DNA from: a virus | Virus record (IMG/VR): IMGVR_UViG_3300027850_000003 | Location: 62,001-126,000 of that record | Length of the DNA: 64,000 nucleotides | Strand: one strand, 5' to 3' | Part shown: positions 1-63,563 of the stretch, one piece after another | How the letters are laid out: each line of letters opens with the position of its first letter | Position numbering within the stretch: position 1 is the first letter of the stretch | The notes under the pieces: generated by a model | Told to the model about the DNA's origin: nothing | What the model saw: the letters and a program-made list of their open reading frames with translations, nothing else | The model's database searches: none | Position numbers and translations under genes: made by a program

Positions 1-477
1 TCCTATGAAGAAGATTTCATTGAAAATATGACAAAGATTAGCTTCAAAGGTATCATGCTAGAGTATTGTAAGCTAGCAGATAATATTGAGAATTTAGATT
101 TAGAATTTGTAAACAGTAGAAGATTTACTTTAGAAAAACTAGCTCAAGAAAATTTATCATTAGATATAAAAGAGATAGTAAAAAAAGTAGGAACTAAAAG
201 AATCCGAACACTAAATTATGCTAAAGTAGCTATCAACAAAGAATTATATAGCAAGTGTGATGAGGTGAAAGATGCTATTAGTGAAGCGATCTACAACAAA
301 CTAGAGAAGAATACTTTTTATTCTACAGCTCAAATTAAACAAGTTTTAGGAAAAATTTATAAAGATTTTAAGATTGAAAAAACACCTAAAGCAGTAGAAC
401 TTGATAAATATTGTAGTATTCGCAAGGTAAGTAGAACTGTAGAAAATAAATTAGTTAAAGGAGTCTTTATAGTGTAA
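1..477 (+). CDS. SF2 helicase-like protein H0, C-terminal part (cut by window edge)
   Basis: The reading frame is open from base 1, so this is the 3' end of a longer gene that starts to the left. The 158 visible residues match the C-terminal domain of the three complete helicase-like genes in this window. They share an LG..RI(R/K)(T/A)L.Y block, then an FYS block followed by K..L..IY, and a VKG ending. It is closest to the copy at 40520-42304 (both have RIRTL). The helicase core is outside the window, so activity cannot be judged. A GIY-YIG nuclease follows 120 bases downstream. Homology of the domain is clear by eye; the function of the domain is unknown. Confidence 0.8.
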   Translation, partial: SYEEDFIENMTKISFKGIMLEYCKLADNIENLDLEFVNSRRFTLEKLAQENLSLDIKEIVKKVGTKRIRTLNYAKVAINKELYSKCDEVKDAISEAIYNKLEKNTFYSTAQIKQVLGKIYKDFKIEKTPKAVELDKYCSIRKVSRTVENKLVKGVFIV

Positions 478-598: not shown

Positions 599-895
599 AT
601 GACCTATTTCAATTTAAAACCAGTCCAAGACCAGAAAGGAATCTATCTTCTATACGTTAAAGATGAGCTTGCTTATGTAGGTAAAAGCAATAATATTTTA
701 ATAAGACCACAACAGCGTTTTTATATTACAGATAAAGAATCATCTACTAAAGATATAGATAGAATTGAATATTATGTTTGTAACTCCTTAACAGACTGTG
801 AACGACTAGAGACTTATCTTATTAATACTTTTGCTCCTAAATATAATTTAGATGAAGTTTCTCCTGATAAATTAACTTTAGTAATTGGTAATTAG
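599..895 (+). CDS. GIY-YIG endonuclease, free-standing
   Basis: The 98-residue protein begins with a GIY...AYVG core (GIYLLYVKDELAYVGKS) and later has ETYLINT, matching the GIY-YIG nuclease domain with its conserved Glu and Asn. The ATG at 599 is chosen over the upstream GTG at 563 because its first residues line up with the second GIY-YIG protein in the window (complement of 59036-59827), which starts MIKFHLKP. It has no extra DNA-binding domain, so it is either a minimal nuclease or half of a former fusion. Free-standing GIY-YIG nucleases in phages are often intergenic homing enzymes. It lies just downstream of a helicase-family gene, a pairing seen again at 57410-59827. Confidence 0.8.
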   Translation: MTYFNLKPVQDQKGIYLLYVKDELAYVGKSNNILIRPQQRFYITDKESSTKDIDRIEYYVCNSLTDCERLETYLINTFAPKYNLDEVSPDKLTLVIGN

Positions 896-1811: not shown

Positions 1812-2067
1812 ATAGCTCTTTATATTTCTTAGTTACAAGCTTAGTAGCATCAATAAAATGATGACCACCAAATACAGCAAAGTTCAATTGAGTGAGCCTA
1901 GTATAACAATCTAAAGTGTTCCAGTTGAATCCTACTACACATTTATGATTAGGACTTTTAACTACCATGCTTCCATTATCATTCTCTACTAAATGACCTC
2001 TAACCTCTAACCATTCTTGCACTACTATATCTGAGGAGAATACTAATTTACTAAATAATTCTTCCAT
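1789..2067 (-). CDS. Hypothetical protein (92 aa)
   Basis: Ninety-two residues, alpha/beta composition with GGHHFIDATK near residue 70 and a basic C-terminus. No recognised family. Part of the minus-strand cluster 1430-2974, which is transcribed away from the terminase gene. Confidence 0.5.
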   Translation of the reverse strand: MEELFSKLVFSSDIVVQEWLEVRGHLVENDNGSMVVKSPNHKCVVGFNWNTLDCYTRLTQLNFAVFGGHHFIDATKLVTKKYKELYVKNKKI

Positions 2068-2103
2068 TATTATACTTCCACTACTAGCTGATAATTTTTT
2101 TTA

Positions 2104-2289
2104 TCAGAGGCTATTTGTATTTTCATATTTGTCTTTAGGGATAAAAGTGTCTAGATCAATTAAATCAGGGGAGATAAAAATCCCTACTACAATCGCAATA
2201 ATTAACACTAATACATAAGGGTCAGAAGTCTGTTTTCTTTTCTTAGGTTTCTCAAAAGATTCTTCAACAGTAATAGTATATTTTTTCAT
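2104..2289 (-). CDS. Small single-pass membrane protein (61 aa)
   Basis: A basic N-terminal part (KPKKRKQ) precedes one clear transmembrane segment (PYVLVLIIAIVVGIFISP, about residues 25-42) and an acidic tail. The charge pattern suggests an N-in orientation. No family recognised. A perfect 7-bp hairpin with a six-T loop (CTGATAA at 2088-2094, TTATCAG at 2101-2107) overlaps the stop codon region. Confidence 0.55.
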   Translation of the reverse strand: MKKYTITVEESFEKPKKRKQTSDPYVLVLIIAIVVGIFISPDLIDLDTFIPKDKYENTNSL

Positions 2290-2292
2290 AAT

Positions 2293-2742
2293 CTAGTAAG
2301 TAAAATGTGATAGTTTATCTATTAATACTTCATCAAGATTTGTATCTGGAAACTGTGGATTATTGAGGTTAGAATCTTGTCCCCAAACTTCTTTAGTTAG
2401 TTTATTACGGTAAGTAAAATCTCCTACTAATTCCTGGTTAATTTCACATTCTAGATGATGAATTTGATTATCCCAAGTAAGCATTATTCTAAAATCTTCA
2501 TTACCGTATCCATAGCAGCAATCTGGAACCTGTAGTATTCCATTTTTATATTTACTAAACAAATTAGATAAAGAATTAAAGCAATAAGAAGTGATATCAA
2601 CTACTCTGTCATTTTCATTAACTTTAATAGCTTCTTCTCTTAGAGAATTTAAATAATTAGTAAATTTAGTAATTTGAAGATCGTGGTTCATTTGTTTTTT
2701 CTCACTAATAAAAAAATCCCCGTTCAGAGGACTTATCAACAT
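2293..2742 (-). CDS. Hypothetical protein (149 aa)
   Basis: No recognised family. The first residues (MLISPLNGDFF) may be extra, because a second ATG gives MNHDLQITKF 17 codons later. The middle contains a CCYGYGNEDF stretch. It lies 3 bases upstream of the membrane protein gene and is probably co-transcribed with it. Confidence 0.5.
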   Translation of the reverse strand: MLISPLNGDFFISEKKQMNHDLQITKFTNYLNSLREEAIKVNENDRVVDITSYCFNSLSNLFSKYKNGILQVPDCCYGYGNEDFRIMLTWDNQIHHLECEINQELVGDFTYRNKLTKEVWGQDSNLNNPQFPDTNLDEVLIDKLSHFTY

Positions 2743-2761
2743 TATAGCAAGTAAAGCAGTA

Positions 2762-2974
2762 TTATGTACTTATTCCAGAATAATTAGCTACTCCGATACA
2801 TTGTAGATGAAAGAACAATTCTTCTAATTCGTTAATTGCACAAATTAATTCTTGACCTTTTTCATTAGTAAGTTTAATTTCAGTGTCTCCTACTAACTCA
2901 GAAGTTAGGCAACAATTAGCAAGAGTACAAGAAGTAATTAGGTCTTTACCGTTAACAGTTTTCTTAGTGATCAT
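2762..2974 (-). CDS. Hypothetical small protein (70 aa), first gene of minus cluster
   Basis: Seventy residues with three cysteines in the first third (CTLANCC) and again near the C-terminus. No recognised family. It is divergent from the terminase gene, with a 53-base intergenic region in which the minus strand has a TATAAT-type -10 box. This probably drives the whole minus cluster. Confidence 0.5.
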   Translation of the reverse strand: MITKKTVNGKDLITSCTLANCCLTSELVGDTEIKLTNEKGQELICAINELEELFFHLQCIGVANYSGIST

Positions 2975-3027
2975 ATTTTTAAGATGTTATTGTAGTAATA
3001 TTATAGCTTAGAGAGTAGTAACAAATA

Positions 3028-4611
3028 ATGGTAAGTAAAAGATCACAGAAAGATAAGATTCAATTTTTAGATCAAGAGATAGAATTTCTTCTAAATCAGC
3101 AGAGATATTTAAATGCTTCTAACTCATTATATGATTTTCTCAAGATAGGGTTTGATCACGTTGAGACTCATAATTTTCGAGATAGTAGATTAGCAGAAGC
3201 TTTATGTGAGCATTTAGAAGCTGTTATGGCTGGACAGATAAAAAGACTAATTATAAATATTAGTCCTAGAACTATGAAGACTTTACTAACAGGAGTCTAT
3301 TTCCCTGCTTATTGGTGGTTAAAGAAACCTCATTTAAAGTTTATCTATTGTAGTTACACCTTTGATATTGCTAAAGTATGTTCCGAGAAGTTTAGGAATC
3401 TAGTTAAACATGATTATTATAATTTAGTTCAAAGCACTATTGAGAAGTACAACGATTCTCCTTTAAAAATAATATCTGATAGTGAAAAACATATTCTCAA
3501 TTCTTATCGTGGAGATAGAAGTACAGTAGGTATTGGTGGCTCGATTACTGGTAAAGGTGCAGATGTAATCATACTAGATGACCCTTTAAAAGCTTCTGAG
3601 GCTAAGAGTAGGAAAGTAAATATGAGAACTAACCAATTTATAGGTGAGACTCTTATTTCTAGGTTAGACAAGACCAGTGAGGAAAAGGTCTTTATATTAA
3701 TCCAGCAAAAGTTAACCCAAGATGATACTTCTGCGTTTTTAGAGGCAATGGGAGGATGGGATAGATTAGTATTGCCTTTACTTTATACTGGTGTTTCTGA
3801 GAGTGATACTAGGCTAGGTTTTAAAGATTGGAGAACTAAACCTGGGGAAATATTAGTCCCAGAACTATTAAATATTGAAGAGATTAGACGAATGGAAGTA
3901 GAGATGACTTCTATTGAGTTTGAACGTCAATGTCAGCAGAACGTTAAAGGGATTTCTGGTAATGTTATCTCGAATAAATATTTTAAGGAATATCAGAATA
4001 CTCCTCCTTATGAGCAATATATCTTAGCAGCAGATTTAGCTGAATCAGTACAAGATGATGCGTGCTTTACTGGATTAGTAGTTTTTGGTATTTATGCGGG
4101 TAAATATTATGTAGTAGATGTAGTAGAGAAAAGATTAGGTTTTGATGATCAAATATTAGAAGTTAAAAATCTCTTAGCTAAGTACCCTATCTCTTATAAG
4201 TTGATAGAAAAAAAGAGTATGGGAGCAGCACTTATCAATGTCTTGTCTAGAGAGATTCCTGGTATTATAGCTCTTGAACCTAGAGACTATGGGAATGAGA
4301 AAGAAAACAGATTGAAAGCTACTCTTCCTGCATTTATGGCTGGAAAGATATATTTCCCTACTAAAGAGTCCTGTGAAAAAATTGAAACTCTTAAAGACCA
4401 AATAGTTACTTACCCTCTTACTAGATATGATGATATTATGGATGCCTTCTGTTATGGAGTCTTATGGTTAGAAAGAAATAATAAAGTAATTTTAACTGAA
4501 GAAACAGTGGTTATTGTACCTGAACATATAAAACAAAGGAGAAATATCTTTGATGATACTCCTCCTAATAGTGTGTTTGGTTCAGTTAATAGTAGTAGAT
4601 TTAGGTTTTAA
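3028..4611 (+). CDS. terL: Terminase large subunit (TerL)
   Basis: The 527-residue protein has both halves of a packaging motor. The ATPase has a Walker A at about residues 79-85 (SPRTMKT), and a Walker B IILDDP at about 181-186. The RNase H-like nuclease has Asp336 (AADLAES), Glu394 (IEKKSMG) and the YDDIMDAF block near 467-474. TerL binds the portal, drives DNA into the prohead and cuts the concatemer. Length is normal for the family. It is read from a short divergent intergenic region and its stop overlaps the end of the antisense HU-like gene by 4 bases. No small terminase or portal gene is recognised next to it. Confidence 0.95.
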   Translation: MVSKRSQKDKIQFLDQEIEFLLNQQRYLNASNSLYDFLKIGFDHVETHNFRDSRLAEALCEHLEAVMAGQIKRLIINISPRTMKTLLTGVYFPAYWWLKKPHLKFIYCSYTFDIAKVCSEKFRNLVKHDYYNLVQSTIEKYNDSPLKIISDSEKHILNSYRGDRSTVGIGGSITGKGADVIILDDPLKASEAKSRKVNMRTNQFIGETLISRLDKTSEEKVFILIQQKLTQDDTSAFLEAMGGWDRLVLPLLYTGVSESDTRLGFKDWRTKPGEILVPELLNIEEIRRMEVEMTSIEFERQCQQNVKGISGNVISNKYFKEYQNTPPYEQYILAADLAESVQDDACFTGLVVFGIYAGKYYVVDVVEKRLGFDDQILEVKNLLAKYPISYKLIEKKSMGAALINVLSREIPGIIALEPRDYGNEKENRLKATLPAFMAGKIYFPTKESCEKIETLKDQIVTYPLTRYDDIMDAFCYGVLWLERNNKVILTEETVVIVPEHIKQRRNIFDDTPPNSVFGSVNSSRFRF

Positions 4612-24945: not shown

Positions 24946-25070
24946 TTGACATAATTTCTCTGACATATTTTATAAAACTTGGAATTCAAATATAGCTATA
25001 TATTTCAACTTTTATGTCAGATATATTTTTTTATCTACTTTGACATATTTATTGAAATTAGTGCTATAAT
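24946..25070 (+). promoter_or_regulatory. H1 promoter with repeated TGACATA motifs
   Basis: TTGACA (25040-25045) and TATAAT (25065-25070) form a promoter with a 19-base spacer ahead of H1. TGACATA-type motifs occur at 24947, 24961, 25041 and inverted at 25014-25019, one overlapping the -35 box. The pair at 24961 and 25019 gives a dyad 59 bases long. This looks like an operator array (inference), and the 59-base block is repeated downstream of H1. Confidence 0.55.
24961..25019 (+). repeat. 59-bp direct repeat, left copy, flanking H1
   Basis: This block aligns without gaps to 26906-26964, with about 44 of 59 bases identical by eye. Both begin TGACATATTTTAT and end in TTTTATGTC. The copies lie on either side of H1, the second directly before a helicase relic. 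This suggests tandem duplication of promoter plus gene, or flanking repeats of a mobile unit. Confidence 0.6.
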
Positions 25071-25097
25071 GAATATATTCTATAAAATGTGTCAACT

Positions 25098-26876
25098 ATG
25101 AAATGTCAAATCAACGCACCAATCGAAGCTTTATATGTTAGTAATTTCTTAGATGAGATTCCTAAAGGTATAGTAAATAAAGGAGCTTGTGGAGTAGGAA
25201 TGAGTTCTATTGCTCTTGAAGATAATTATCCTACTATAATAGCTGTTCCTACTATTGAAGTTATTAAAAATAAAACTGCCCAATACCCAAATAACAGAAG
25301 GTTAGAATCTGTATTCGGTTATTACGCAGATATTAAAGAGAAAAATCTAATTCACTATGTTAAGTCTACCACAGTTCCTAAAATCTTAGTTACTTATGAC
25401 TCTTTCCATAGGGTAGCTAAATTAGTAGATAAGAATAAATATCGAGTAGTAGTGGATGAATTCTCTGATTTGTTAGATGCTTATAGCTATAGAGAAAAAG
25501 CTATTGAACATTTACTTACCTCAGTTCAAGAGTTTGATTATGTTAGCTATATCTCAGCTACTCCACTTAAAGAAGAGTATTATCCTGAAGCTCTTAAAAA
25601 CCTTAATGAGTATGAGATAGTTTGGCAAGGTACAGTCAAAATTAAAGTTGAAAGAAAGAAAACTAATAAACCTTATAAAGCTGCTTGTAATATTATCGAC
25701 AGTTATCGAGCTGGAGGGGGAGAAGGATTATTGATGCCTAATGGTCACTATTCAAAAGCTGCTTATTTTTTTGTTAATTCAGTAAATTCAATTGCTAATA
25801 TTCTAGAAGCTTCTGATTTAAATCCAACTGATGCAAGAGTTATTTGTGCTAATAACGAAGTGAATCAAAAAAAGCTAGAAAATTATCCAATAGAAACTGC
25901 TTTAGCTCCTGAGAAGAAGTTCAATTTTATTACTAGCACTGCTTTCAAAGGATGTGACTTTTACTCTGAGACTGGAGTTACTTATATTATTAGTAACACT
26001 TCTAACAGTAATACATTAATCTCGATTGATACGGATGTTAAACAAATAGCGGGTAGAATTCGTAACGCTAATAATCCTTTCAACAATCACATTTATCACA
26101 TTTACAATACTGATAATTCATTACTATCTGCTGAGAATTTTGAGAAATTAGTACAAAAGAAAATAAAAGCTACTAACTCTATTATTTCAATGTTTTATAA
26201 AGGGAACGAAGATGAACGAGCTATTTGGTTAGAGAATTATTATTTGAAAGCTAAATGTAGATTTAGAGATGACGACTATACTTATCTAACTGAAGAAGGA
26301 GATATTATTTTCAATGATTATGCGGTTCTAAATGATAAAAGAAGATGGGAAGTTTCTAGTAATGTTTATCGAGATGGAGTGTCTATTAGACAAGCTTATA
26401 TTGATGCTGGATGTTTTGATATTTCTACTTTCCAAGACTTTGAGAAGATTGAAGATGATGGGTTTCTTAGCAAACTTACTAATGGTAGTTTTAAAGAATA
26501 TTGTCAGAGGTATATCAATAACTCAGATGAAAGACTTTATATTGGGGATAGATTCCCTGTTATTAAAGAAGCTTTTACTAAATTAGGTGAAGCTAGGATG
26601 AAAGCTCTTAGCTATAATGCCCAAAGATTTTTAGCTGAAATGCAAGCTACTTCGGATACTACAAAGAACTACATAATTAAAGAATTAAAAGCGAATCTTA
26701 AAGTAGGGGAGGAATATGTCTTATCTGATATTAAGGGTTTACTCAATAGTCTTTACTATAAAGTAGGAATCAAAAAGAAAGCTAAAGCTACTGAAATTGA
26801 TAATTACCTTGAAGTTGAGAAACGACAGAGACGAGTAAATGGAGTTCTTAAAAACATGATCGTAATCATTAAGTAA
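25098..26876 (+). CDS. SF2 helicase-like protein H1
   Basis: The 592-residue protein has recognisable superfamily 2 motifs. The P-loop position is GACGVGMS (29-36), where the usual Lys is Met. Motif Ia-like PT follows. DEFS (120-123) is in the Walker B position, SATP (153-156) is motif III, and QIAGRIR (about 316-322) is motif VI. A C-terminal domain (last ~150 residues) is shared with H0, H2, H3, the relic at 26969 and the GIY-YIG fusion. The ATG at 25098 is preferred to the GTG at 25089 because it matches H2's N-terminus. It has its own promoter between tail tube and chaperone genes. Loss of the P-loop Lys is shared by all copies; related phage families with GxGG-type loops exist. Role may be replication or element mobility; unknown. 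Confidence 0.8.
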   Translation: MKCQINAPIEALYVSNFLDEIPKGIVNKGACGVGMSSIALEDNYPTIIAVPTIEVIKNKTAQYPNNRRLESVFGYYADIKEKNLIHYVKSTTVPKILVTYDSFHRVAKLVDKNKYRVVVDEFSDLLDAYSYREKAIEHLLTSVQEFDYVSYISATPLKEEYYPEALKNLNEYEIVWQGTVKIKVERKKTNKPYKAACNIIDSYRAGGGEGLLMPNGHYSKAAYFFVNSVNSIANILEASDLNPTDARVICANNEVNQKKLENYPIETALAPEKKFNFITSTAFKGCDFYSETGVTYIISNTSNSNTLISIDTDVKQIAGRIRNANNPFNNHIYHIYNTDNSLLSAENFEKLVQKKIKATNSIISMFYKGNEDERAIWLENYYLKAKCRFRDDDYTYLTEEGDIIFNDYAVLNDKRRWEVSSNVYRDGVSIRQAYIDAGCFDISTFQDFEKIEDDGFLSKLTNGSFKEYCQRYINNSDERLYIGDRFPVIKEAFTKLGEARMKALSYNAQRFLAEMQATSDTTKNYIIKELKANLKVGEEYVLSDIKGLLNSLYYKVGIKKKAKATEIDNYLEVEKRQRRVNGVLKNMIVIIK

Positions 26877-40519: not shown

Positions 40520-42304
40520 ATGCAACATAACATTATCGAAGCACCAATTAAAGCCATCTACCTAAGTGAGTTTCTTACTGAGTTACCTCAAGGAATACTA
40601 AATAAAGGGGCAACTGGAGTAGGAGGGACAGAAATGGCTCTTAAATCATCAGAGTCTTATATAATAGCTGTTCCAACAATAGAAATAATAGTTAACAAAA
40701 AGAATCAGAACCCAGAGATAGTAGAAGTTTATGGAGATACTACATTTAAAGAGTTTTCAAAACAGATTAAAAGTAGAGTCAAGTATAAGATTTTCACTAC
40801 TTATGATTCACTTCCTAAAACTATTAATTGGCTTACTTCTTTAAGTACCAACCCATATAAAACTAGATTATTAGTTGATGAATACCACAAAATACTAAAT
40901 GATTATAGCTATCGTGATAAGGCAATTGATAATCTACTAAAACAAGCGAGTAAATTTGAGTATGTAACTTATTTATCTGCAACTTCTATTAAGCCTAAGT
41001 TTACTCCTAGAATATTAGAATCTCTTGATTATACTGAGATTAAATGGTCTACTAAAGAGATTAAATTACATCGGAAGAAAACTCCTAATCCTTTTGCTGC
41101 AGTAGTTAAAATTATTACTAGATACAAAGCTAATAATTACCAGATGAAAATCAATGGTCATATTAGTAATGAAGCATATTTCTTTGTGAATTCGGTTAAG
41201 TCAATTAAAGATATTATTAACAACGCTGGACTTACTCAAGATGAAGTGAAAATTATATGTTCTACTACTGATAGAAATCAACACATACTAGATGATTTTG
41301 AGATTGGAAATGTTCATGATCCTAATAAACCTTTTACGTTCGTTACTTCTAAATCATTCCTTGGAGTAGATTTTTACTCGGATAGTGGAGTCATTTACGT
41401 TGTTAGTAATGTTAATAGAAAAAATACTCTACTAGATATTTCTACTGATATCACTCAAATAGCTGGCAGGATTCGTAATATCAATAACCCATTCAAAGAT
41501 ACTATCTTCCATATTTATAATACTGGGATACAAGAGCTAAGCCAACAACAGTTCAAAGATAATATTGAAAAGAAAATTGAAAACACTAATATTCAAATCA
41601 ATGTCTTTAACAATAAGTTAGAACCAAAAGAAAAAGCTGCTTTCTTAGTTCGATATGAGTTAGATATCGAAAAAGATTACAGCTATTACAATCCGGAAAC
41701 TAATGAATTAGAGTTTAATGAACTTAAAAAACTAAATGAGGAGTTTAACTACGAAGTTCTATTCACTATTTATAATAATGGTATTAGTATTCGTCAAGGA
41801 TATTTAGAAGCAGGATTTACTCTTGAAGGAAACCAAGAATATGAAAAAGTAGAAAAAGATTTCTTAGCAACTGCTACTAGCATAAGTTATCAGTCAATGT
41901 TAAAGCAATATGTGGAATTAATATCTCAAAAAAATCTTAGTTCTGATGACCAATATACTTTAAATAGTATTGATAAGTTAGATCCTACTATTAAGAAAGC
42001 AGTAGATATTTTAGGAACCTCTCGTATTAGAACTCTACGATATCATAAAAGTAAAATAACTAATGAACTTTATTATAACTCTAACCAAGTTAAAGAAGCT
42101 ATTAAAAGTAGTTTAGCTAAGAAAATAGAAAATAATAAATTTTACAGTTTCAATGAGTGTAAAGCTTTACTTAGTGACATTCATATCATTCTTAAAATAG
42201 ATAAAAAATGTAAAGGTAAAGATGTTTTAAGTTATTTAGAAGGAAAAGTTATTAATAAACGAATAGAAGGAATCCTACTTCAAGGATGTATTTTTGAGGA
42301 CTGA
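40520..42304 (+). CDS. SF2 helicase-like protein H2
   Basis: The 594-residue protein has the same architecture as H1. The loop is NKGATGVGGTEMAL (P-loop Lys replaced by Gly). DEYH is in the Walker B position, SATS is motif III and QIAGRIRN is motif VI. A shared C-terminal domain with RIRTL and FYSFNECKALL follows. It is the most divergent complete copy and is closest to H0. The leader before ATG is A-rich without SD. It forms a single-gene transcription unit between inverted repeats. Role unknown. Confidence 0.8.
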   Translation: MQHNIIEAPIKAIYLSEFLTELPQGILNKGATGVGGTEMALKSSESYIIAVPTIEIIVNKKNQNPEIVEVYGDTTFKEFSKQIKSRVKYKIFTTYDSLPKTINWLTSLSTNPYKTRLLVDEYHKILNDYSYRDKAIDNLLKQASKFEYVTYLSATSIKPKFTPRILESLDYTEIKWSTKEIKLHRKKTPNPFAAVVKIITRYKANNYQMKINGHISNEAYFFVNSVKSIKDIINNAGLTQDEVKIICSTTDRNQHILDDFEIGNVHDPNKPFTFVTSKSFLGVDFYSDSGVIYVVSNVNRKNTLLDISTDITQIAGRIRNINNPFKDTIFHIYNTGIQELSQQQFKDNIEKKIENTNIQINVFNNKLEPKEKAAFLVRYELDIEKDYSYYNPETNELEFNELKKLNEEFNYEVLFTIYNNGISIRQGYLEAGFTLEGNQEYEKVEKDFLATATSISYQSMLKQYVELISQKNLSSDDQYTLNSIDKLDPTIKKAVDILGTSRIRTLRYHKSKITNELYYNSNQVKEAIKSSLAKKIENNKFYSFNECKALLSDIHIILKIDKKCKGKDVLSYLEGKVINKRIEGILLQGCIFED

Positions 42305-55260: not shown

Positions 55261-55638
55261 TTAATCATCATCTTCGTCTATGTAACTAATAAGCTCTTTA
55301 GGTACTAATAATTTTACTCCAATAGACTGAACCATATTAACTAAATCTTGTAAGTCATTAGGATTAATATCCATTGAATCCTCCTCATCTTCATTACAAA
55401 ATATAAATCTTGCTAATTTTTTATAAGGGTCTCCTATATTTGTATACTGCAATTTAATAGGTAAAATTCTTTTAACCTCTTTTTCAGTAAATAAATATAA
55501 TTTAGGTCTAGGAGGGTATTCAATAACAAATACTAATTTTCTTTCATTATATTTAAGAGCTGGATGGTCACGAAAATCACTAATTGGTTTCATTTTATTT
55601 ATTTTACGTTCGTGTTTTAGAGTTATACTATTAAACAT
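55261..55638 (-). CDS. Hypothetical protein, last gene of HigA/ATPase operon (125 aa)
   Basis: A 125-residue protein with a basic first half and an acidic C-terminus ending IDEDDD. It overlaps the HigA-like gene by 8 bases. An internal start (MKPISDF) is possible. It does not resemble a RelE/HigB toxin, although it occupies a partner position. Confidence 0.5.
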   Translation of the reverse strand: MFNSITLKHERKINKMKPISDFRDHPALKYNERKLVFVIEYPPRPKLYLFTEKEVKRILPIKLQYTNIGDPYKKLARFIFCNEDEEDSMDINPNDLQDLVNMVQSIGVKLLVPKELISYIDEDDD

Positions 55639-55930
55639 CTTCTTTACTATCCCAGATATCTACTTTCCTTTGAAGTCTCATTAATAGCTCAGAACTAACA
55701 CCTAGTTTAATACCTAATATACTACCTAGTCTACTTTCTAAATTTTTAGCCCAGTAATGAGTCATAGGTCTATCTCCTTCTAATATCTCATCTAACTCAA
55801 TATTATAAAGGTACAAGTCTCCAATACTACTATCTCTTTCCTCTAGTAAATCTCTTATTATTTCTCCTGGGTGAATTGGTCTAATCTTACGGGATAAAAT
55901 GGATGACACTGATACCGTATTTTCTTTCAT
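55631..55930 (-). CDS. HigA-like XRE-family protein
   Basis: Residues 17-29 (RPIHPGEIIRDLL) and the C-terminal VSSELLMRLQRKVDIW match the HigA antitoxin family, which has HPGEIL at the start and LLxLQxxYDLW at the end. The central helix-turn-helix is degenerate (LYLYNIELDEILEGDR). No HigB toxin is recognised next to it. Phage orphan antitoxin-like proteins can regulate or block host toxins (inference). Confidence 0.65.
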   Translation of the reverse strand: MKENTVSVSSILSRKIRPIHPGEIIRDLLEERDSSIGDLYLYNIELDEILEGDRPMTHYWAKNLESRLGSILGIKLGVSSELLMRLQRKVDIWDSKEDV

Positions 55931-55937
55931 TGTATGC

Positions 55938-56474
55938 TTATTCTTCTAAATAATCTTTACTAGAAACCCACTTAAAATGATCCAAAGATAAGACTTGACT
56001 AACACTACTAATTAATAAAGGATTATGCACTGCACAGATTATTTGCTTAGTAGTAGACTCATCTTTCAAAAACTTAGATAACTTTTTAATAGATTTAATA
56101 GATAACGCTAAATCTGGTTCATCTACTAAAACGGCTACATTATCTTCTAACTTAGATATTGTCCTTAATATTGAGTTATTTGATTCTCCATGACTATGAA
56201 AGATAGAAGCGATTTGAGAAAGAGTTTCTATTCTACCTTTAGTTCTAGGATTACCATGTTCTAAATCTAGATAGCAACAATCATTATATTCATCAGTTTC
56301 TACTGTTACATCTATCTTTTCTCCTGCTATTTTTTTCCCAAAGATTACTTCTAATAAAGAAGATTTTCCACTACCATTGTCTCCTACTAATAGATTTAAT
56401 CCTTTCTTAAAAGTAAATATCTGCCCCTTAGTAAACTTTCTAAAATTAGAGTTAAAGGTTATTGATTTTAGCAT
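55938..56474 (-). CDS. Compact ABC-type ATPase
   Basis: The 178-residue protein has Walker A GDNGSGKSS (31-39), Walker B VAVLVDEP (about 112-119) and an H-loop-like AVHNP (about 149). It is a minimal Rad50/AAA_21-like ATPase without a coiled-coil insert or nuclease domain. Overlap by one base with the upstream gene indicates co-expression. It may work with neighbouring proteins in DNA surveillance or phage-phage conflict, but nothing proves this. Confidence 0.7.
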   Translation of the reverse strand: MLKSITFNSNFRKFTKGQIFTFKKGLNLLVGDNGSGKSSLLEVIFGKKIAGEKIDVTVETDEYNDCCYLDLEHGNPRTKGRIETLSQIASIFHSHGESNNSILRTISKLEDNVAVLVDEPDLALSIKSIKKLSKFLKDESTTKQIICAVHNPLLISSVSQVLSLDHFKWVSSKDYLEE

Positions 56475-56875
56475 TATAAGACCTCTACTATATCTCCATC
56501 ACAATCATTAGCTTCATAATACACTTTACCGTATTGCTTCATTCCCTCACAAATAGATAATACTATCTCCTCTGCTAACCCCCAATAACTAAGACTCCAA
56601 ATAATTTCCTTATCTCCATACTCAGAATAATCACTATCGCAATCAAAGTGAACCATTAGGATTCTAGATTCATTATTAACTTTAAAGTAGATATTGAAGA
56701 ATTTACTACTTGGATTACATTCAATTCTAGGAAACTGACTTGTCTTATCTTTCCACACATAATCTCCAGAAGAATATTTCTTAATAATAGGGATTAGTAC
56801 ATTTTCTATTTTACTTAATACTGAGAAGATATCTTTATTCTCAGTCACTACGAACCCAACAGTTGAAATTCCCAT
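56474..56875 (-). CDS. Hypothetical protein paired with ABC-type ATPase (133 aa)
   Basis: A 133-residue alpha/beta protein with many acidic residues (FDCDSDYSEYGD, ANDCDGDIVEVL). No family. Overlaps the ATPase gene by one base, so likely a functional partner. Confidence 0.5.
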   Translation of the reverse strand: MGISTVGFVVTENKDIFSVLSKIENVLIPIIKKYSSGDYVWKDKTSQFPRIECNPSSKFFNIYFKVNNESRILMVHFDCDSDYSEYGDKEIIWSLSYWGLAEEIVLSICEGMKQYGKVYYEANDCDGDIVEVL

Positions 56876-57100
56876 TTATTTTATTTCCTTACTCTTAACT
56901 ACTTTATCTACTAACTTTTTCCAATCATCTATCAAAGGCTTATAGTTTACATAATATTCCTCACTAAACTGTACTTCACTTCTCTCTCCACTATAGGCTC
57001 TGAACCTTGTTTCACTATGATTTCCGAGTCTCGTTTCCCACTCCTCCTCATACTCTTCAATATAAAGTTCGTTATTATAATACTTAATAAAAATAATCAT
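56876..57100 (-). CDS. Hypothetical small protein (74 aa)
   Basis: Tyr- and Glu-rich 74-residue protein, first gene of the five-gene minus-strand operon (57100 to 55261). No family recognised. Confidence 0.45.
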   Translation of the reverse strand: MIIFIKYYNNELYIEEYEEEWETRLGNHSETRFRAYSGERSEVQFSEEYYVNYKPLIDDWKKLVDKVVKSKEIK

Positions 57101-57198
57101 AGTTCACTGATACTAAAATAAAGAATATTAAATAAGTCTCATTCTTTCTCTCGCTTTGACTCGTTCTCTCATTCCTATACTATGACTTGGAACTTAGT

Positions 57199-57293
57199 AA
57201 AATATTTAAAGTCTCGTTCGTCTTTGAGTAGTTGCTTAGTATCTAGTGGTGACTAAGATATTAGAACAAAATCTTCCAAGAGACGTTGGAGCT
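57199..57293 (+). ncRNA. Structured sequence element B upstream of H3
   Basis: Two blocks (57199-57221, 57278-57293) are identical to the reverse complement of element A near 24775-24818. GTCTC (57211-57215) can pair with GAGAC (57280-57284). The 56-base middle, absent from A, holds a hairpin CTTAGT/ACTAAG (57235-57257). Conserved stem with variable loop suggests a structured RNA or a recombination site. The 309-base gap 57101-57409 otherwise holds an AATCTT/AAGATT hairpin (57301-57316). Confidence 0.45.
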
Positions 57294-57333
57294 AATAGAA
57301 AATCTTAAGAAAAGATTAAGATAAGGAATTAAT

Positions 57334-57400
57334 TATAATAGATACCACTTTTTTCTACCATATAAGGTTAAAATAGAGATATCCCAAACAGAAAAAGTGT
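57334..57400 (+). promoter_or_regulatory. H3 promoter region
   Basis: TATAAT at 57334-57339 with no good -35 box. CACTTTTTTC (57346-57355) and GAAAAAGTG (57392-57400) form an inverted repeat framing the transcript start area. It may be a leader hairpin or operator. No SD before the ATG at 57410. Confidence 0.4.
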
Positions 57401-57409
57401 TAAAAATAA

Positions 57410-59092
57410 ATGTATTACTCCGATAAATATTCAGAAATTCCAAATGGCATAGTTGACAAAGGAGCTTGTGGAATAGGTTTAACTAGCTATGCTCTTGAGA
57501 ATAATGTTCCTACTGTAGTAGTTACTCCTACTGTAGCTATGATTAAAAACAAAGTATCTCAATACCCAAATAATAGAAGGTCAGATTCAATTATAGGATT
57601 TTACCAAGGAGTATCACTAGCTACTATTAAAAATTATATTGAATATACTGCTATACCTAAAATAATGGTAACATTTGATAGTTTTTATAAAATAGTCCCT
57701 TTTATAGATGACACTTACCAAATCATAGTAGATGAGTTTAGTGAATTATTAGATGCCTATAACTACAGAAATAAAGCAATATCAAAATTACTTATTGAAG
57801 TTCAAAAGTTTAGTAAAGTTTCTTATGTATCAGCTACTCCTACTAAAGTCGAATATCTCCCTCTTCAATTAAAAGATTTAGATTACACTACTTTAGAATG
57901 GGATGATTTAACTAAGATCAATATTGATTTACTTCATAAAAAAAGACCTATTCAAACTGTTAGAGCTTTAATAAATAAGTACCGTAGTGGTTTAGTAGAA
58001 ATTAACGGAATTAAAAGTGATGCAGGATATTTCTTTGTTAACAGTGTTCGGATGATTAAAGAAATATGTGAAAAATCAGAACTCTTAAATTCTGAAGTTA
58101 GAATTATTTGCTCGGATACAGATAAGAATAAACGTACATTAGGTGATTATGATATTTCTACTTCACTTGATCCCGAAACACTATTTACTTTTATTACTTC
58201 TTGTAGCTTTAAAGGTTCAGATTTCTATAGTGAAAGAGGTGTAGTATTTGTAGTATCCAATAATACTAATACACATACATTAATAACTATTGACACAGAC
58301 ATTATTCAAATCGCAGGTAGGATAAGAAACCCTACTAATCCTTTCCGAAACTACTTATGTCACATCTTTAATGTTAATCCTCTTAGTTTAAGTAGAGAAG
58401 AATTTTTAAAAATAACTGAGGAGAAGATTAAACAAAGCAATACCTTATTACAAGGATATAGTAAACTTACTGATGAAGAACGAGATTTATTTCTCTCAAC
58501 TCAAAATTTAGAAAACTTTTATATCTCTATAACTGAAGAAGGAGTTCCTTACTATGACGAGATGTTGTATTTATTAGATAAAAGAAGATATGAGGATATT
58601 GCTCAAGTATATAAAGATGGTCTTTCTATTAATAGTTATTATTCATCTTTAAATGAAGTAGATGTATTGTCTAGCACCAAATTAGATATTGACTATTTAG
58701 TTAATAATTCTTTTTATTCTCTTTGTAAAACTGCTGTTGAAGGTAAAGGGGATTTAGAAACTATTTATAAACAATTTCCATTAATTAAAGATGCTATTGA
58801 AAAATTAGGAAAAGAAAAAATTAAAGCTTTAGGTTTTCATATCACTAAAATTCAATACGAAATTGACGACTTTGACAAAAAAGATAAAGTTAAAACAGTG
58901 GTGATAAAAGAAATAGACAAAGAAAAATTTTATAGTTGTAAAGATATGAAGATATTACTTGGATACATTTATGCCAGACTAGGTATTAGAGCAACCGCTA
59001 AAGCTTCAGATATTTTAGAATACTGTAACGCTAAGTTATGTTATAGAAAAATAAACGATAAAACAGTAAAAGGATATCAAATAGTAATTTAA
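57410..59092 (+). CDS. SF2 helicase-like protein H3
   Basis: The 560-residue protein is clearly paralogous to H1. Its loop is DKGACGIGLTSYAL (P-loop Lys replaced by Leu). DEFS is in the Walker B position, SATP is motif III and QIAGRIRN is motif VI. The shared C-terminal domain ends KTVKGYQIVI. The N-terminus is about 10 residues shorter than H1/H2, and a TAA directly upstream excludes a longer start. Its 3' end abuts that of the convergent GIY-YIG fusion gene. Function as for H1 unknown. Confidence 0.8.
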   Translation: MYYSDKYSEIPNGIVDKGACGIGLTSYALENNVPTVVVTPTVAMIKNKVSQYPNNRRSDSIIGFYQGVSLATIKNYIEYTAIPKIMVTFDSFYKIVPFIDDTYQIIVDEFSELLDAYNYRNKAISKLLIEVQKFSKVSYVSATPTKVEYLPLQLKDLDYTTLEWDDLTKINIDLLHKKRPIQTVRALINKYRSGLVEINGIKSDAGYFFVNSVRMIKEICEKSELLNSEVRIICSDTDKNKRTLGDYDISTSLDPETLFTFITSCSFKGSDFYSERGVVFVVSNNTNTHTLITIDTDIIQIAGRIRNPTNPFRNYLCHIFNVNPLSLSREEFLKITEEKIKQSNTLLQGYSKLTDEERDLFLSTQNLENFYISITEEGVPYYDEMLYLLDKRRYEDIAQVYKDGLSINSYYSSLNEVDVLSSTKLDIDYLVNNSFYSLCKTAVEGKGDLETIYKQFPLIKDAIEKLGKEKIKALGFHITKIQYEIDDFDKKDKVKTVVIKEIDKEKFYSCKDMKILLGYIYARLGIRATAKASDILEYCNAKLCYRKINDKTVKGYQIVI

Positions 59093-59827
59093 CACCTCTA
59101 CTCCTTTAACAAGTTTACCTTTTAACCTAACAGTTTTATATTTAACTTCTGCGTAATTAGCTATATCAATAGCTTTTCCTTTCTTTGCAATATCTAGTTT
59201 TTCATAAATATTATTGAGAGTATTTTTAACAAAAGCTAGAGAATAGAAAGTCTCTATATCTAAAAGTCGAATGAGTTCATCTTTAATACATTGCTGAATA
59301 TCAGTGTTATTAAATTTAAGCTCATCTATTAATCTATTAACAAGATAACCTAAAGCTTTCATTCTCTTGGCTCCTAATTTAGTAAAAGCCTCTCTAATAA
59401 TAGGAAATCTATCACCAATATAAAATCTTTCATCTGGGCTACTAATATACTTCTGACAATATTCTTTAAAACTACCATTAGTAGGAAACCCATCATCTTC
59501 AATCTCTTCTACCTCGTATTTTTCTGGTAATTCTACTTTAATTGTTACTCCACCTAAATAAACTTTTTCTTTATTAAATGTAGGATGCAGAGTATTAATT
59601 AAATAAGTCTCAATAATATCTGAGTCTGCTAGAGATTCACAAGGATAATACTCAATTACATCTATTAGTGATTTCCATTCCTGATACTCTGGATCATTAG
59701 GATTAAAATGATCATTTAGCCTACTTCTAAGATTTGAGCTTCTACCAACATAAGCTAGTTCATTTTTGACATAAAGAAGATAAACCCCAATTTTTTCTTT
59801 TAACGGTTTTAAATGAAACTTAATCAT
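59036..59827 (-). CDS. GIY-YIG nuclease fused to helicase-family C-terminal domain
   Basis: Residues 1-95 are a GIY-YIG domain (GVYLLYVKNELAYVGRSS, ETYLINTLHP). From about residue 110 the protein continues EDDGFPTNGSFKEYCQKYIS and SPDERFYIGDRFPIIREAF, almost the same as H1's C-terminal domain. The family stop after KLVKGVEV is missing. The frame runs on for 18 codons into the antisense of H3's end, so the last residues (NYYLISFYCF) are probably read-through sequence. The helicase core is absent. The fusion links nuclease and helicase families and suggests the C-terminal domain is a portable DNA-targeting module (inference). Confidence 0.8.
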   Translation of the reverse strand: MIKFHLKPLKEKIGVYLLYVKNELAYVGRSSNLRSRLNDHFNPNDPEYQEWKSLIDVIEYYPCESLADSDIIETYLINTLHPTFNKEKVYLGGVTIKVELPEKYEVEEIEDDGFPTNGSFKEYCQKYISSPDERFYIGDRFPIIREAFTKLGAKRMKALGYLVNRLIDELKFNNTDIQQCIKDELIRLLDIETFYSLAFVKNTLNNIYEKLDIAKKGKAIDIANYAEVKYKTVRLKGKLVKGVEVLNYYLISFYCFIVYFSIT

Positions 59828-59891
59828 AAACTATGTTCTTATATTTATAATGTAGAAATTTGAAAATAATTCATAGAAAAATCAACATTAA

Positions 59892-59916
59892 AGAGGTACT
59901 AAAAATATCTCTTTCC
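59892..59916 (+). terminator. GAGGTA-type hairpin near tRNA-Tyr
   Basis: AGAGGTA (59892-59898) pairs with TATCTCT (59906-59912) with one G-T pair, followed by TTCCC. It is weak as a terminator but is the fourth hairpin of this type found at the edge of a helicase or GIY-YIG gene. Confidence 0.35.
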
Positions 59917-59930
59917 CTATTGACAAATAA

Positions 59931-60011
59931 TGGGTGAGAGTAGAATTGAACTACTGGTGCTTACGCTACTGTTTTACAGACAGCTACCTTTACCAACAGG
60001 AGGACTCACCC
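59931..60011 (-). tRNA. tRNA-Tyr (anticodon GTA)
   Basis: Read on the minus strand, acceptor stem GGGTGAG/CTCACCC. The anticodon stem GCTGT/ACAGT has loop CTGTAAA, giving anticodon GTA. A long variable arm typical of bacterial tRNA-Tyr is present. The T stem is AGTAG/CTACT with loop TTCAATT. No CCA is encoded. It lies about 100 bases upstream of the GIY-YIG fusion gene on the same strand. Confidence 0.9.
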
Positions 60012-60068
60012 GATACCTCAGATTATATCATAGAGATAGAAAAAGCTACTCAACTATCTCTTTTTTAT

Positions 60069-60479
60069 TTACCTGAGAAACTCCTCTTCCAGAATATCTG
60101 CTATTTGATTAAAATTTAATCCCCAAATATCATTTAATTGAGTTAAATCATCGTAATTAATTCTATCTTCTTCTTCATAGTTTTCTTCTAATATTTCTAG
60201 TAGTTTTGAATTTTTTGAGCTGATTTTAAAATCAGGTGTCCTATCTTCTAAGTTTAAGAGGTTTAAAATACTCTTAGGTAGCGCATCCTTTTCATTTAAA
60301 ATAGTGGCGTAATAACTGTCCTCTCCTTCATCCCAGTCTTTCCTGTTAGTGATATCGCAGAGAACTCCTAGACAACAAAACCTATCATCTATACTCCTTA
60401 AACAACCTTGGCCCTGAGTATATTTACCACTTCTAAGGGCTTCGATCCATTCTTTAATTAGTTTTAAATTAGTATTCAT
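60069..60479 (-). CDS. Conserved phage protein, WIEALRSGKYxQG family (copy 1)
   Basis: The 136-residue protein has the widespread phage pattern: WIEALRSGKYTQGQG, then RFCCLGVLCD, a LPxxIxxLL block and an acidic C-terminus (LNDIWGLNFNQIADIL). Function of the family is unknown. A second copy is cut by the right window edge. Two Cys pairs suggest metal binding (inference). Confidence 0.7.
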   Translation of the reverse strand: MNTNLKLIKEWIEALRSGKYTQGQGCLRSIDDRFCCLGVLCDITNRKDWDEGEDSYYATILNEKDALPKSILNLLNLEDRTPDFKISSKNSKLLEILEENYEEEDRINYDDLTQLNDIWGLNFNQIADILEEEFLR

Positions 60480-60575
60480 TTAATTTTTTCCTATATTTAT
60501 TTTAATTGAGTCAGATATTTCTTCTATGCTAGTATTTTTGTTAATATTAATAAAGTAAATAACCACTAATCTACC

Positions 60576-63563
60576 ATGAATGACGACCAAGTAGTACAGC
60601 AAATATCTAAATTACTGAAGAATACCTCTTTTATTGGTTATGCCTTAAATGGTGGAATAGGAACTAAGATAAACGTTCGCAATACTGAGACAGGTAAGAC
60701 TATTCAAGCTCTTAGTATTAATGTTGATTCTACTGGAGAAGTCTTAGTAGTTAAAGACTCAGAAGATGGTCAATATAAAGCAGTTACATTTAAGACTGCT
60801 GAGAAGGTAAGTACAAAGATAATTCAGCTAAGAAAGACTAAACCTACTAATGACAAGAAAATAATTGAATATACAGATTCTGATATTGAAGTATTCTACC
60901 TATTCGTTAAATTAATAGATACTGGTAGCCCTGTTGCTACTGATTTAAATTCTACTTGGATTAGGAGAGGAAGCTCTTGTACTCAGTTCGTAGGAGCTTA
61001 TGAAAGATGTAATTACGCAGCTAGAGAGACTATTGGAGGGGTTAGTCATACTGGACTAGAGTATCAACCTTATAATACTCTTCAATCTTGTCTTAACGAT
61101 GATTTGGGGAGAGATGCAAAGACTCCTCATGGTACTAAGGATGCACAAGGAGGAGGACTTGGCAATAAAATCTACTCTACTAGGATGACCTCAGTAGAAG
61201 AGCAATATATGCTAGGAGCTTTAACTTCTCATGATAATGCTAATGGTACAAGTTTTAAGAAACTATTTGGTTATGGATCTATTTTAGAATGTTCAGGGGC
61301 TATGTTCATGGATGGTTGGGGGCCATCAACGAATCAAGCTGGGGAAGAGTATACTCGTTGCTATTTTCAATATTTCCCAGGTTTTACTAATGCTTGTACT
61401 CCTGCTATGCAAGTTGCTGGTTATTGTACTAATCAAGGCTTTATCAATAGTAGATGTCCTCTTCCTGGTCAACCGTTACCTCCTGGTCAACCTAGTGTCG
61501 GAGATATTGATAATAGTTGGGGTCATATTTATGGATGGAAAGATTTACCTTACTCATTTTTTTATAGAAGAAGATTTTACCAAGGTTATGTAGGAGGGGT
61601 AAGTGTCCCTGGTTATTTTTTAATATTACAAGTGAATGAAGACCAAACTCCTACTATCCCAGAAGGTTTCTTTCCTTGGGTTCCTGGTTGCCCTTCTAAT
61701 AATCAAGGAGGGCCGTATGATGGTAGTGGAGGTAATAGATTCCCTGATGGAGTTCCACCTGTTCAGAAGAGAGATATGAAGCTATCTACTCATAGAGCTG
61801 AAATTTGGTTAGGAAGTAGTAAGAAAGAAGAAGCTATTAAATTACATGAACTAGGTGCTAGTGATTTATTTAGTGGAATGTATAACTCATTTATTACTAG
61901 AGCAGATGAAACAATAGTAGATACTGAAAACAGACTTCAAAGAGGGCCTAACTTTACTCCTACTAACGAAGAGGTTACTGTTCATAATAAAATATACGAA
62001 AATTGGAACAAAAATAGAATTGATTTAAATATTAATCCTAAAGTCTGGATTTATATTATTAATAATACGCCTAAAGCTGCAACCTCTACTACTGGTTATA
62101 CTCTTGATAATCATGTTAATGATCCTACTAATGCTACTCTTCACAGAGCTATTAATAACTTATACAATAGAACTATTAATTTATCGGTAGTAGATAATAA
62201 AACCCAGATAATACATCTTAAATTAGGGTTAACTTCTAGAAGCACTCTTTCTAATAGCGATTGTAAAGGAATAGGAGGCTGGGATGGTTTTTTTAGAGAT
62301 AGCACTCAGAAACTTAGTAATCAGAGTTGGGAATATCAAAAATACATAACTATTACTGTAAAAGATTGGAGTATATTATCCTCTACTAATACACTTGATA
62401 CTACTAAATTAGAAACAGAAGATTTTTGGAATACAGATAATATTAAACGTAGATTTTTTACTTCTTTTGGAGGTCATAGGATTAACTTAAATCTTAAAGA
62501 CACTTATGACCAAATACTACTTAGAAATAACGCTGAAATAGATACTGAAAAAATAATAAGTGACCTTCATTTTGAACAACTTAACTACTCACTAAAATTT
62601 ATAACTCCCACTACTAGCACTTTGGGTGGAGAATTATATTTTTCAGGATTAAACTTTCTCCCTTCTCCTTCTAACTTTTACAATCCTAGTAGGTATTACG
62701 CTTTAAGCTCTAGAAGTTGGTGGGAATTATGGGCTAAAGGGACTTATAGTAAAAAAAATAAAAGATTAAGTTCTATAGTTGGTTATGAAAAAAATCGTCA
62801 TCAAGTAGTGAAAAGTTATGGGTTAGGTGCAAATTTAACATATAATAATGCTGCTACAGACCCATATTTATATAATGAAAGTTATTTTGAATATTTAAGT
62901 AGTAGACCTAAAGTATTTATTCCCTCTTTAATTAAAAAATTAAGAGGAGATAAGCTGTTTTTTAATAGTAACCGCTATATAACTGATAAACAAGAAACTT
63001 TAGAAAAAATAGGATCTTTGTTTTTCTTTTCTAGCCCTACAAGTAATTGGACAAATGATTTCTTTTTCTCTAATGTCCCAGAGTACCAATATATCTCTCT
63101 TCCTAGTCTTTATTATGGTAATGATAACGGTATAGAAACTTTAACATCTAATAATAATTCTTTACAACCTGACTTTCTGGGTAATAACAATTTTTTAAAA
63201 ATTATGAATACTCGTTCATGGTTTCAAAGACTTTGGGCGCAATTTATATATGATGAAAATATTAAAGTAGATGTGGATTCTTATAAAGATGTTAATTTTA
63301 CACTTCCTACTAACATCCCTCAGTATAAAAAATTTAGTTTATTTAAAGAGGGGATTACTGCTGAATATCCTTTCTCTACTCGTATAAGTTTTAGTGATCC
63401 TGCTTTAGAGTTAAACACAGTTCTTTCTCCTGGTAAGCTAGAAATAGCTAATAAACAAGTAACTATTAACAAACCCACTAATGTAACTTTAGACCCGAAT
63501 ACTAGCTTTCTAGTCTATTTATACCCCAATGTTACTGTGACTAAAAAAACCAAGGAAATTTGA
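60576..63563 (+). CDS. Large virion-type protein (995 aa)
   Basis: The 995-residue protein is Asn/Ser/Thr-rich with about a dozen cysteines in the first 400 residues and a proline-rich PLPPGQP segment near 297-303. The N-terminal 110 residues look like a small alpha/beta domain, the rest beta-rich. No hydrolase motif seen. Likely a tail or fibre protein outside the main fibre cluster. It is flanked by two minus-strand genes of one family. Role by composition only. Confidence 0.5.
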   Translation: MNDDQVVQQISKLLKNTSFIGYALNGGIGTKINVRNTETGKTIQALSINVDSTGEVLVVKDSEDGQYKAVTFKTAEKVSTKIIQLRKTKPTNDKKIIEYTDSDIEVFYLFVKLIDTGSPVATDLNSTWIRRGSSCTQFVGAYERCNYAARETIGGVSHTGLEYQPYNTLQSCLNDDLGRDAKTPHGTKDAQGGGLGNKIYSTRMTSVEEQYMLGALTSHDNANGTSFKKLFGYGSILECSGAMFMDGWGPSTNQAGEEYTRCYFQYFPGFTNACTPAMQVAGYCTNQGFINSRCPLPGQPLPPGQPSVGDIDNSWGHIYGWKDLPYSFFYRRRFYQGYVGGVSVPGYFLILQVNEDQTPTIPEGFFPWVPGCPSNNQGGPYDGSGGNRFPDGVPPVQKRDMKLSTHRAEIWLGSSKKEEAIKLHELGASDLFSGMYNSFITRADETIVDTENRLQRGPNFTPTNEEVTVHNKIYENWNKNRIDLNINPKVWIYIINNTPKAATSTTGYTLDNHVNDPTNATLHRAINNLYNRTINLSVVDNKTQIIHLKLGLTSRSTLSNSDCKGIGGWDGFFRDSTQKLSNQSWEYQKYITITVKDWSILSSTNTLDTTKLETEDFWNTDNIKRRFFTSFGGHRINLNLKDTYDQILLRNNAEIDTEKIISDLHFEQLNYSLKFITPTTSTLGGELYFSGLNFLPSPSNFYNPSRYYALSSRSWWELWAKGTYSKKNKRLSSIVGYEKNRHQVVKSYGLGANLTYNNAATDPYLYNESYFEYLSSRPKVFIPSLIKKLRGDKLFFNSNRYITDKQETLEKIGSLFFFSSPTSNWTNDFFFSNVPEYQYISLPSLYYGNDNGIETLTSNNNSLQPDFLGNNNFLKIMNTRSWFQRLWAQFIYDENIKVDVDSYKDVNFTLPTNIPQYKKFSLFKEGITAEYPFSTRISFSDPALELNTVLSPGKLEIANKQVTINKPTNVTLDPNTSFLVYLYPNVTVTKKTKEI

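Follow-up and report, generated by a model that had tools for sequence, protein, structure and literature searches.

Among the free-standing homing endonucleases of phages, GIY-YIG and T5orf172 genes are frequent (PMC2988022, PMC10448857). T4 segE adjoins and targets the helicase gene uvsW (PMC2988022); a homing nuclease beside a helicase can therefore simply be aimed at the helicase gene. A different use of a related nuclease is seen in ICP1 Odn, which carries a DNA-binding-type domain borrowed from the RepA initiator of a satellite (PMC8263062). The gene considered here, F1, encodes a GIY-YIG nuclease fused to a C-terminal domain (CTD), which is found at the end of five SF2-type helicase paralogs (H0 to H4) of the same 130-kb phage as well. 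It lies in a stretch of 64,000 nucleotides (the window) that corresponds to positions 62001-126000 of the 129,969-base phage contig IMGVR_UViG_3300027850_000003. The CTD is a probable recognition domain, undescribed in the libraries searched and common to the nuclease and the helicase family; the open-licence literature searched contained no account of a domain shared between a GIY-YIG nuclease and helicases of this kind. The parts of F1 are as follows (window coordinates; aa, amino acids).

59036-59827, minus strand: F1, fusion of a GIY-YIG nuclease and the CTD, 263 aa, ATG start
59573-59791, minus strand: GIY-YIG domain of F1, aa 13-85, Pfam match
59312-59470, minus strand: helical-bundle half of the F1 CTD, aa 120-172, 64% identity to H1
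59084-59305, minus strand: winged-helix half of the F1 CTD, aa 175-248, 33% identity to H1

Residues 13-85 of F1 match the Pfam GIY-YIG family PF01541 above its cut-off (E=2.1e-9). The catalytic positions are intact in F1, where VY, YVG, Arg, Glu and Asn align, and in F2, a second fusion of the same genome. F1 lacks the C-terminal RING/PHD zinc domain of the SLX1 type, and a Pfam scan finds no zinc-binding domain in it. The remainder of the protein is the CTD of about 135 residues, which is matched by the CTD profile at E=5e-47, the profile itself having included F1. Searched against its own genome, the F1 protein finds eight places: itself, F2 (E 2e-40), a free GIY-YIG gene and the C-termini of the five helicases (E 6e-37 to 4e-8). 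DNA similarity between F1 and H1 starts at nucleotide 323 of F1 and 1358 of H1, at the residues EIEDDGF (residue 110 and 455, respectively), and extends over 375 nt at 69%, while no significant DNA alignment to H1 covers the GIY half. The junction at EDDGF, which the original prediction from the sequence alone had also placed in H1, is thus confirmed at the DNA level. The CTDs nearest to that of F1 are those of H1-type helicases (46-49%) and not that of its neighbour H3; on these alignments, the F1 CTD appears to derive from an H1-type helicase. Five Vibrio matches of the 'excinuclease ABC subunit C' type covered the GIY domain of F1 only and were discarded, and a search of viral contigs with F1 alone gave no matches.

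The helicases that share the domain are distributed over the genome on both strands.

1-477, plus strand: CTD end of H0, whose gene starts outside the window (genome 60645-62477)
25089-26876 (genome 87089-88876), plus strand: H1, SF2-type helicase with CTD at 26439-26873, closest helicase type to the F1 CTD
40520-42304 (genome 102520-104304), plus strand: H2, SF2-type helicase with CTD at 41837-42301
57410-59092 (genome 119410-121092), plus strand: H3, SF2-type helicase, convergent with F1
58670-59089, plus strand: CTD of H3
genome 12475-14154, minus strand, outside the window: H4, helicase with CTD

An AlphaFold model of H1 (pLDDT 87) matches DEAD-box and other SF2 structures in Foldseek at E about 1e-10, and BLM, WRN and a complex of XPB with the nuclease Bax1 are among the matches. 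Structure match and motifs together indicate two RecA-like lobes, with motif II (DE), motif III (SAT) and motif VI (QxxGRxR) retained. The canonical Walker A motif GxxxxGK[ST] is not found: its variants (GACGVGMS, GATGVGGT and GACGIGLT among them) carry M, G, L or C at the position of the lysine. Four residues ahead of the first conserved glycine, a lysine is invariant across 14 aligned relatives and may substitute for the Walker A lysine. None of the models of Pfam, NCBIfam, PHROG or PADLOC describes these helicases, and no Pfam model reaches its cut-off; the GMT-wHTH Pfam match of H0 is weak (E 0.05). TGACATA-like motifs, direct and inverted, recur upstream of H1 (window 24958-25094) and could be promoter elements or an operator.

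The AlphaFold model of the CTD, built from 57 sequences (pLDDT 92.8, pTM 0.78), consists of a helical bundle followed by the element order H-S-H-H-S-wing-S, which is that of a winged helix, and this second half has an average net charge of +4.3. The winged helix is a usual DNA-binding fold, and the modelled topology suggests that the CTD is a DNA-binding domain. In a library of viral structures the model matches a crAss-like 'Meiotically up-regulated protein 113' (E 8.6e-5) as well as a 606-aa protein, which is the length of the helicase of phage ET-ABTNL-9. No family of the searched family libraries matched the CTD; against PDB sequences and Pfam the only hits were DnaJ and IL-10, which were rejected as chance matches. 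The CTD alignment is too diverged for a pattern scan.

The original prediction called for a database search for the domain combination, and this search shows that it recurs in other phages. Among the 53 helicase loci found in a scan of viral contigs, six contigs (G018, G025, G026, G032, G033 and G036) carry a gene of MUG113/T5orf172-like plus CTD make-up that starts within some 20 nt of the helicase stop. MUG113/T5orf172 belongs to the GIY-YIG superfamily, and it scored above Pfam cut-offs in all five of the adjacent genes tested (G018, G025, G026, G033 and G036). Broken versions exist in G022 and at a second G025 locus, and non-adjacent versions in G016 and at a second G032 locus. Together with F2 and a third fusion, F3, in the related phage IMGVR_UViG_3300018890_000002, whose N-terminal GIY half is lost, these at least six other phage contigs speak against a one-off assembly artefact. 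The domain had been thought to occur otherwise only behind the helicase core; this does not hold, since about ten further loci have the CTD within non-helicase proteins. The partner genes at loci L115, L116, L054 and L113 (of G032, G022, G025 and G038) are intact, frameshifted or broken at the N-terminus, and one of them encodes a 480-aa protein with three weak CTD matches in its C-terminal part.

In eight adjacent helicase-nuclease pairs, the CTDs of the two partners share 49.6% identity, against 35.2% in mismatched combinations (permutation p=0.0013). The CTD of the adjacent helicase is closer than those of same-genome paralogs in six of the seven pairs for which such a control exists, a control that cannot separate co-evolution of the CTDs from gene conversion.

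Other nucleases also occur directly behind the helicases. A GIY-YIG gene without CTD follows the helicase at H0 of the window and in G002, Phab24, L046 and L162; an HNH gene in D'Alembert, L044, L158 and L164; and a PD-(D/E)XK-like gene in L021, L034, L048 and L167. All PD-(D/E)XK calls and those of L046, L158, L162 and L164 were assigned by motif reading. The majority of the helicases have no nuclease neighbour. Vibrio phage 166E36-1 was rejected as a further pair because the gene ahead of its nuclease is not this helicase. Further fusion, nuclease and CTD sequences of the genome are the following.

genome 45064-45879, minus strand, outside the window: F2, second GIY-YIG plus CTD fusion, found by searching the genome with F1
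599-895, plus strand: free GIY-YIG gene behind H0, without CTD (open reading frame 563-895, genome 62563-62895)
26969-27169, plus strand: remnant of the winged-helix half of a CTD, 66 aa, no start codon seen, 92 nt behind H1

The free GIY-YIG gene is closest to the GIY half of F2. Its open reading frame begins at 563 and H0 ends at 477, in agreement with the earlier statement that it lies right behind that helicase. A second CTD remnant lies behind a helicase in a Bacteroides genome.

The genes carrying the domain are mobile. F1 and H3 lie in an insert that is present or absent at a conserved site in relatives.

55931-60575, no strand: accessory insert at site X, 4.6 kb, holding H3 and F1, absent in G002 and G003

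In G002 and G003, the homologs of window 55631-55930 and 60576-63563 are only 5 and 14 bp apart. G002 has a copy of H3 at an unrelated locus, before the homolog of genome gene 1870-3165, with 86% amino-acid identity. The median identity of 77 ortholog pairs is 53.9%, and one pair exceeds the value of H3; the genome was compared in pieces, and genes across the joins may be missed in such gene comparisons. DNA homology between the two H3 copies extends from 26 nt upstream of the gene to 14 nt before its end, and none was detected in the 2.5-kb flanks. H1 lies at unrelated positions in G000 and G001, where once more little beyond the gene itself is homologous. G002 and G003 lack it at the site that it occupies in G000, with a gap of 253 bp in G002. 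Depending on the relative, the helicase between two genes of the terminase region is of the H0, H2 or H4 type. CTD genes can lie end to end, as do F1 and H3 here and a convergent pair of helicases in a Bacteroidaceae genome. The 3' ends of F1 and H3 overlap by 57 nt; the last residues of F1 are therefore read on the antisense strand of H3. Taken together, the genes of the F1 region and the helicase genes behave like mobile elements. The notion that nuclease and helicase genes travel together is in part sustained, by the mobile genes and empty sites and by the GIY-YIG, MUG113/T5orf172, HNH or PD-(D/E)XK-like neighbours of helicases in many contigs; it fails for F1 and H3 as an operon, since the two are convergent, and H3 has moved in another phage without F1, most helicases having no nuclease beside them at all.

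Other genes of the phage were also noted. Within the site-X insert, window 60069-60479 (minus strand) encodes a protein of PHROG 18067; it has non-syntenic homologs in relatives, is closely paralogous to a gene at genome 4422-4841 (minus strand) and looks mobile. Outside the window, a 1150-aa ribonucleotide reductase (L011:15730-19182, minus strand) contains an apparent intein with LAGLIDADG-like motifs, which appears to be a further homing-type element. A 573-aa protein, also encoded outside the window (L015:1469-3190, minus strand), appears to combine sulfotransferase-like P-loop and glycosyltransferase-like domains and has homologs in G002 and G003.

Bacteroidota genomes encode relatives of the helicases, and so does a genome bin of Pseudanabaena, at 45% identity. 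These relatives are rare and patchy among bacterial genomes, occurring in 8 of 61 sampled genomes of the Bacteroides family and in 2 of 77 genomes of the class of the Pseudanabaena bin. A cyanobacterial host for this phage is possible.

From the observed domain make-up, recurrence, operon-like pairing elsewhere, matched CTDs, gene-sized mobility, empty sites and copy decay, we infer that F1 would bind DNA at a particular site, cleave it and spread through this cleavage. The reading preferred here, which has about an even chance of being correct, is that F1 acts as a stand-alone nuclease of the homing type and owes its target to the helicase-derived CTD. A GIY-YIG catalytic domain would have been joined to the C-terminal DNA-recognition domain of an H1-type helicase; this domain would bring F1 to a DNA site of the kind read by the parent helicase type, where the GIY-YIG domain would cleave rival or uninserted phage DNA, and repair of the cut genome would then bring in a copy of the nuclease gene together with its neighbours, mobile helicase genes among them. 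The homing-type system with a DNA-recognising CTD that had been proposed earlier agrees with the predicted winged-helix topology and the empty sites, but its details change, as the CTD of F1 comes from the H1 type and not from the neighbouring H3. A wider version, in which helicase and GIY-YIG-superfamily nuclease form a two-gene mobile unit and read the same site through co-evolving CTDs, and in which helicase genes pass from phage to phage by homing with helicase assistance and nuclease drive, so that paralogs of differing specificity accumulate per genome, is offered tentatively and is rather improbable.

Several results weigh against the homing reading. The loci showed no shared repeat, binding site or cleavage site, and a search for iterons or shared motifs upstream of the helicases yielded two-copy matches only. 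The CTD model matched nothing significantly among PDB structures (best E 0.38), the winged-helix proteins PadR, RFX5, ROQ and RTP recurring in this insignificant list, and the helical half of the CTD is possibly a protein-interaction module. One adjacent pair, G025b, is mismatched at 22% CTD identity; its CTD matches the helicase of another phage at 64%, which suggests an exchange. The site-X insert is not a clean single-gene insertion because other, non-syntenic small genes lie inside it, and ordinary phage mosaicism could account for the movement of H1, H2 and H4, which lack an adjacent intact nuclease.

The main rival to homing is an origin-directed interference nuclease like ICP1 Odn, in which the helicases would be replication initiators or loaders whose CTD binds an origin; by mimicking this specificity, the fusion would cut the origin of a competitor or satellite. 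The helicases of Phab24, ET-ABTNL-9 and D'Alembert follow 0.9-2.2 kb without annotated genes, and a gut phage record (L023:4182-7157) encodes a 991-aa protein in which helicase and CTD are joined to an N-terminal BT4734-like domain (PF08800, E 2e-12), a primase-associated domain. Yet no iteron array could be seen ahead of the helicase genes, and neither a satellite nor a competitor bearing the CTD was found. As many as five copies in one genome would be unusual for an initiator, and, as the CTD is on the phage's own helicases, its own DNA would be a target. This explanation is judged rather unlikely.

Ordinary mosaicism, by which unrelated accessory genes collect at insertion-tolerant sites and the fusion arose by chance recombination, would suit the mixed content of the site-X insert, the commonness of gene-sized exchange in phages and the many helicases that stand alone. 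It is unlikely, given that the nuclease plus CTD arrangement recurs with two branches of the GIY superfamily, PF01541 and MUG113/T5orf172, and that its gene repeatedly comes immediately after a helicase whose CTD matches. Similarly doubtful, and less likely than homing, is a recombination or repair pair, in which the helicase would remodel branched DNA and the nuclease resolve it, the CTD binding structured DNA or linking the two. The nuclease fold behind the helicase varies between phages with its position kept, and the SF2 core with its XPB-Bax1, BLM and WRN matches would suit such a role; five copies per genome, gene-sized movement, broken partners and patchy presence are unlike a housekeeping function, and the matched CTDs within pairs point to site specificity. 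The least probable of these explanations, again behind homing, has the CTD, above all its helical half, docking the nuclease on its partner helicase with DNA choice lying elsewhere: the greater conservation of the helical half between F1 and H1 (64% against 33%) is as expected of an interface, and dimerisation would also yield matched CTDs, but nucleic-acid binding fits better with the winged-helix topology and the positive charge of the second half, and free GIY-YIG partners without CTD also stand behind helicases. A known anti-phage defence system was dismissed, as PADLOC gives only weak cross-matches of the GIY-YIG domain to PDC-S14 and UzuA and none for the helicases at E<0.01.

The occurrence of the CTD in nuclease and helicase family extends to phages of several host groups, and points to a targeting module that selfish or competing virus genes have in common. 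It provides a concrete test of how homing nucleases gain new targets, here by taking the DNA-reading domain of a helicase, and the matched CTDs of adjacent pairs are natural experiments. The helicases themselves move as gene-sized units and multiply inside phage genomes, and the role of a mobile helicase becomes a question in its own right.

Compared with SF2 helicases of the DEAD-box, UvsW and XPB types, the phage helicases are alike in core fold and motifs but have the Walker A lysine replaced. Acinetobacter phage Phab24 (QXM18516-QXM18517) and Psychrobacter phage D'Alembert (DAL_143-DAL_142) each have a CTD helicase followed at once by a nuclease without recognisable CTD, GIY-YIG-like in the former and HNH in the latter. 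I-TevI of the T4 td intron differs from F1, which has no intron and whose CTD matches no curated family and is common to helicases. The T4 seg genes and the T5orf172 homing endonuclease genes of ICP1 resemble F1 in being stand-alone combinations of a GIY-YIG-superfamily domain with a separate DNA-binding domain (predicted in F1), in their patchy presence beside core or helicase genes and in their turnover; unlike theirs, the predicted DNA-binding part of F1 is an uncatalogued helical plus winged-helix domain common to mobile helicases of the same genome. ICP1 Odn is similar in that a GIY-YIG-superfamily nuclease bears a DNA-binding-type domain taken from a replication-type protein, and the CTD of F1, which would likewise bind DNA, is homologous to that of another protein, the helicases. 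Odn borrows from a satellite initiator, whereas the domain of F1 is common to the phage's own SF2-type helicases, and, unlike Odn, helicase and nuclease-CTD genes form an operon-like pair in other phages. The parallel indicates that placing a borrowed reading domain on a nuclease may be a general route to weapons of virus competition.
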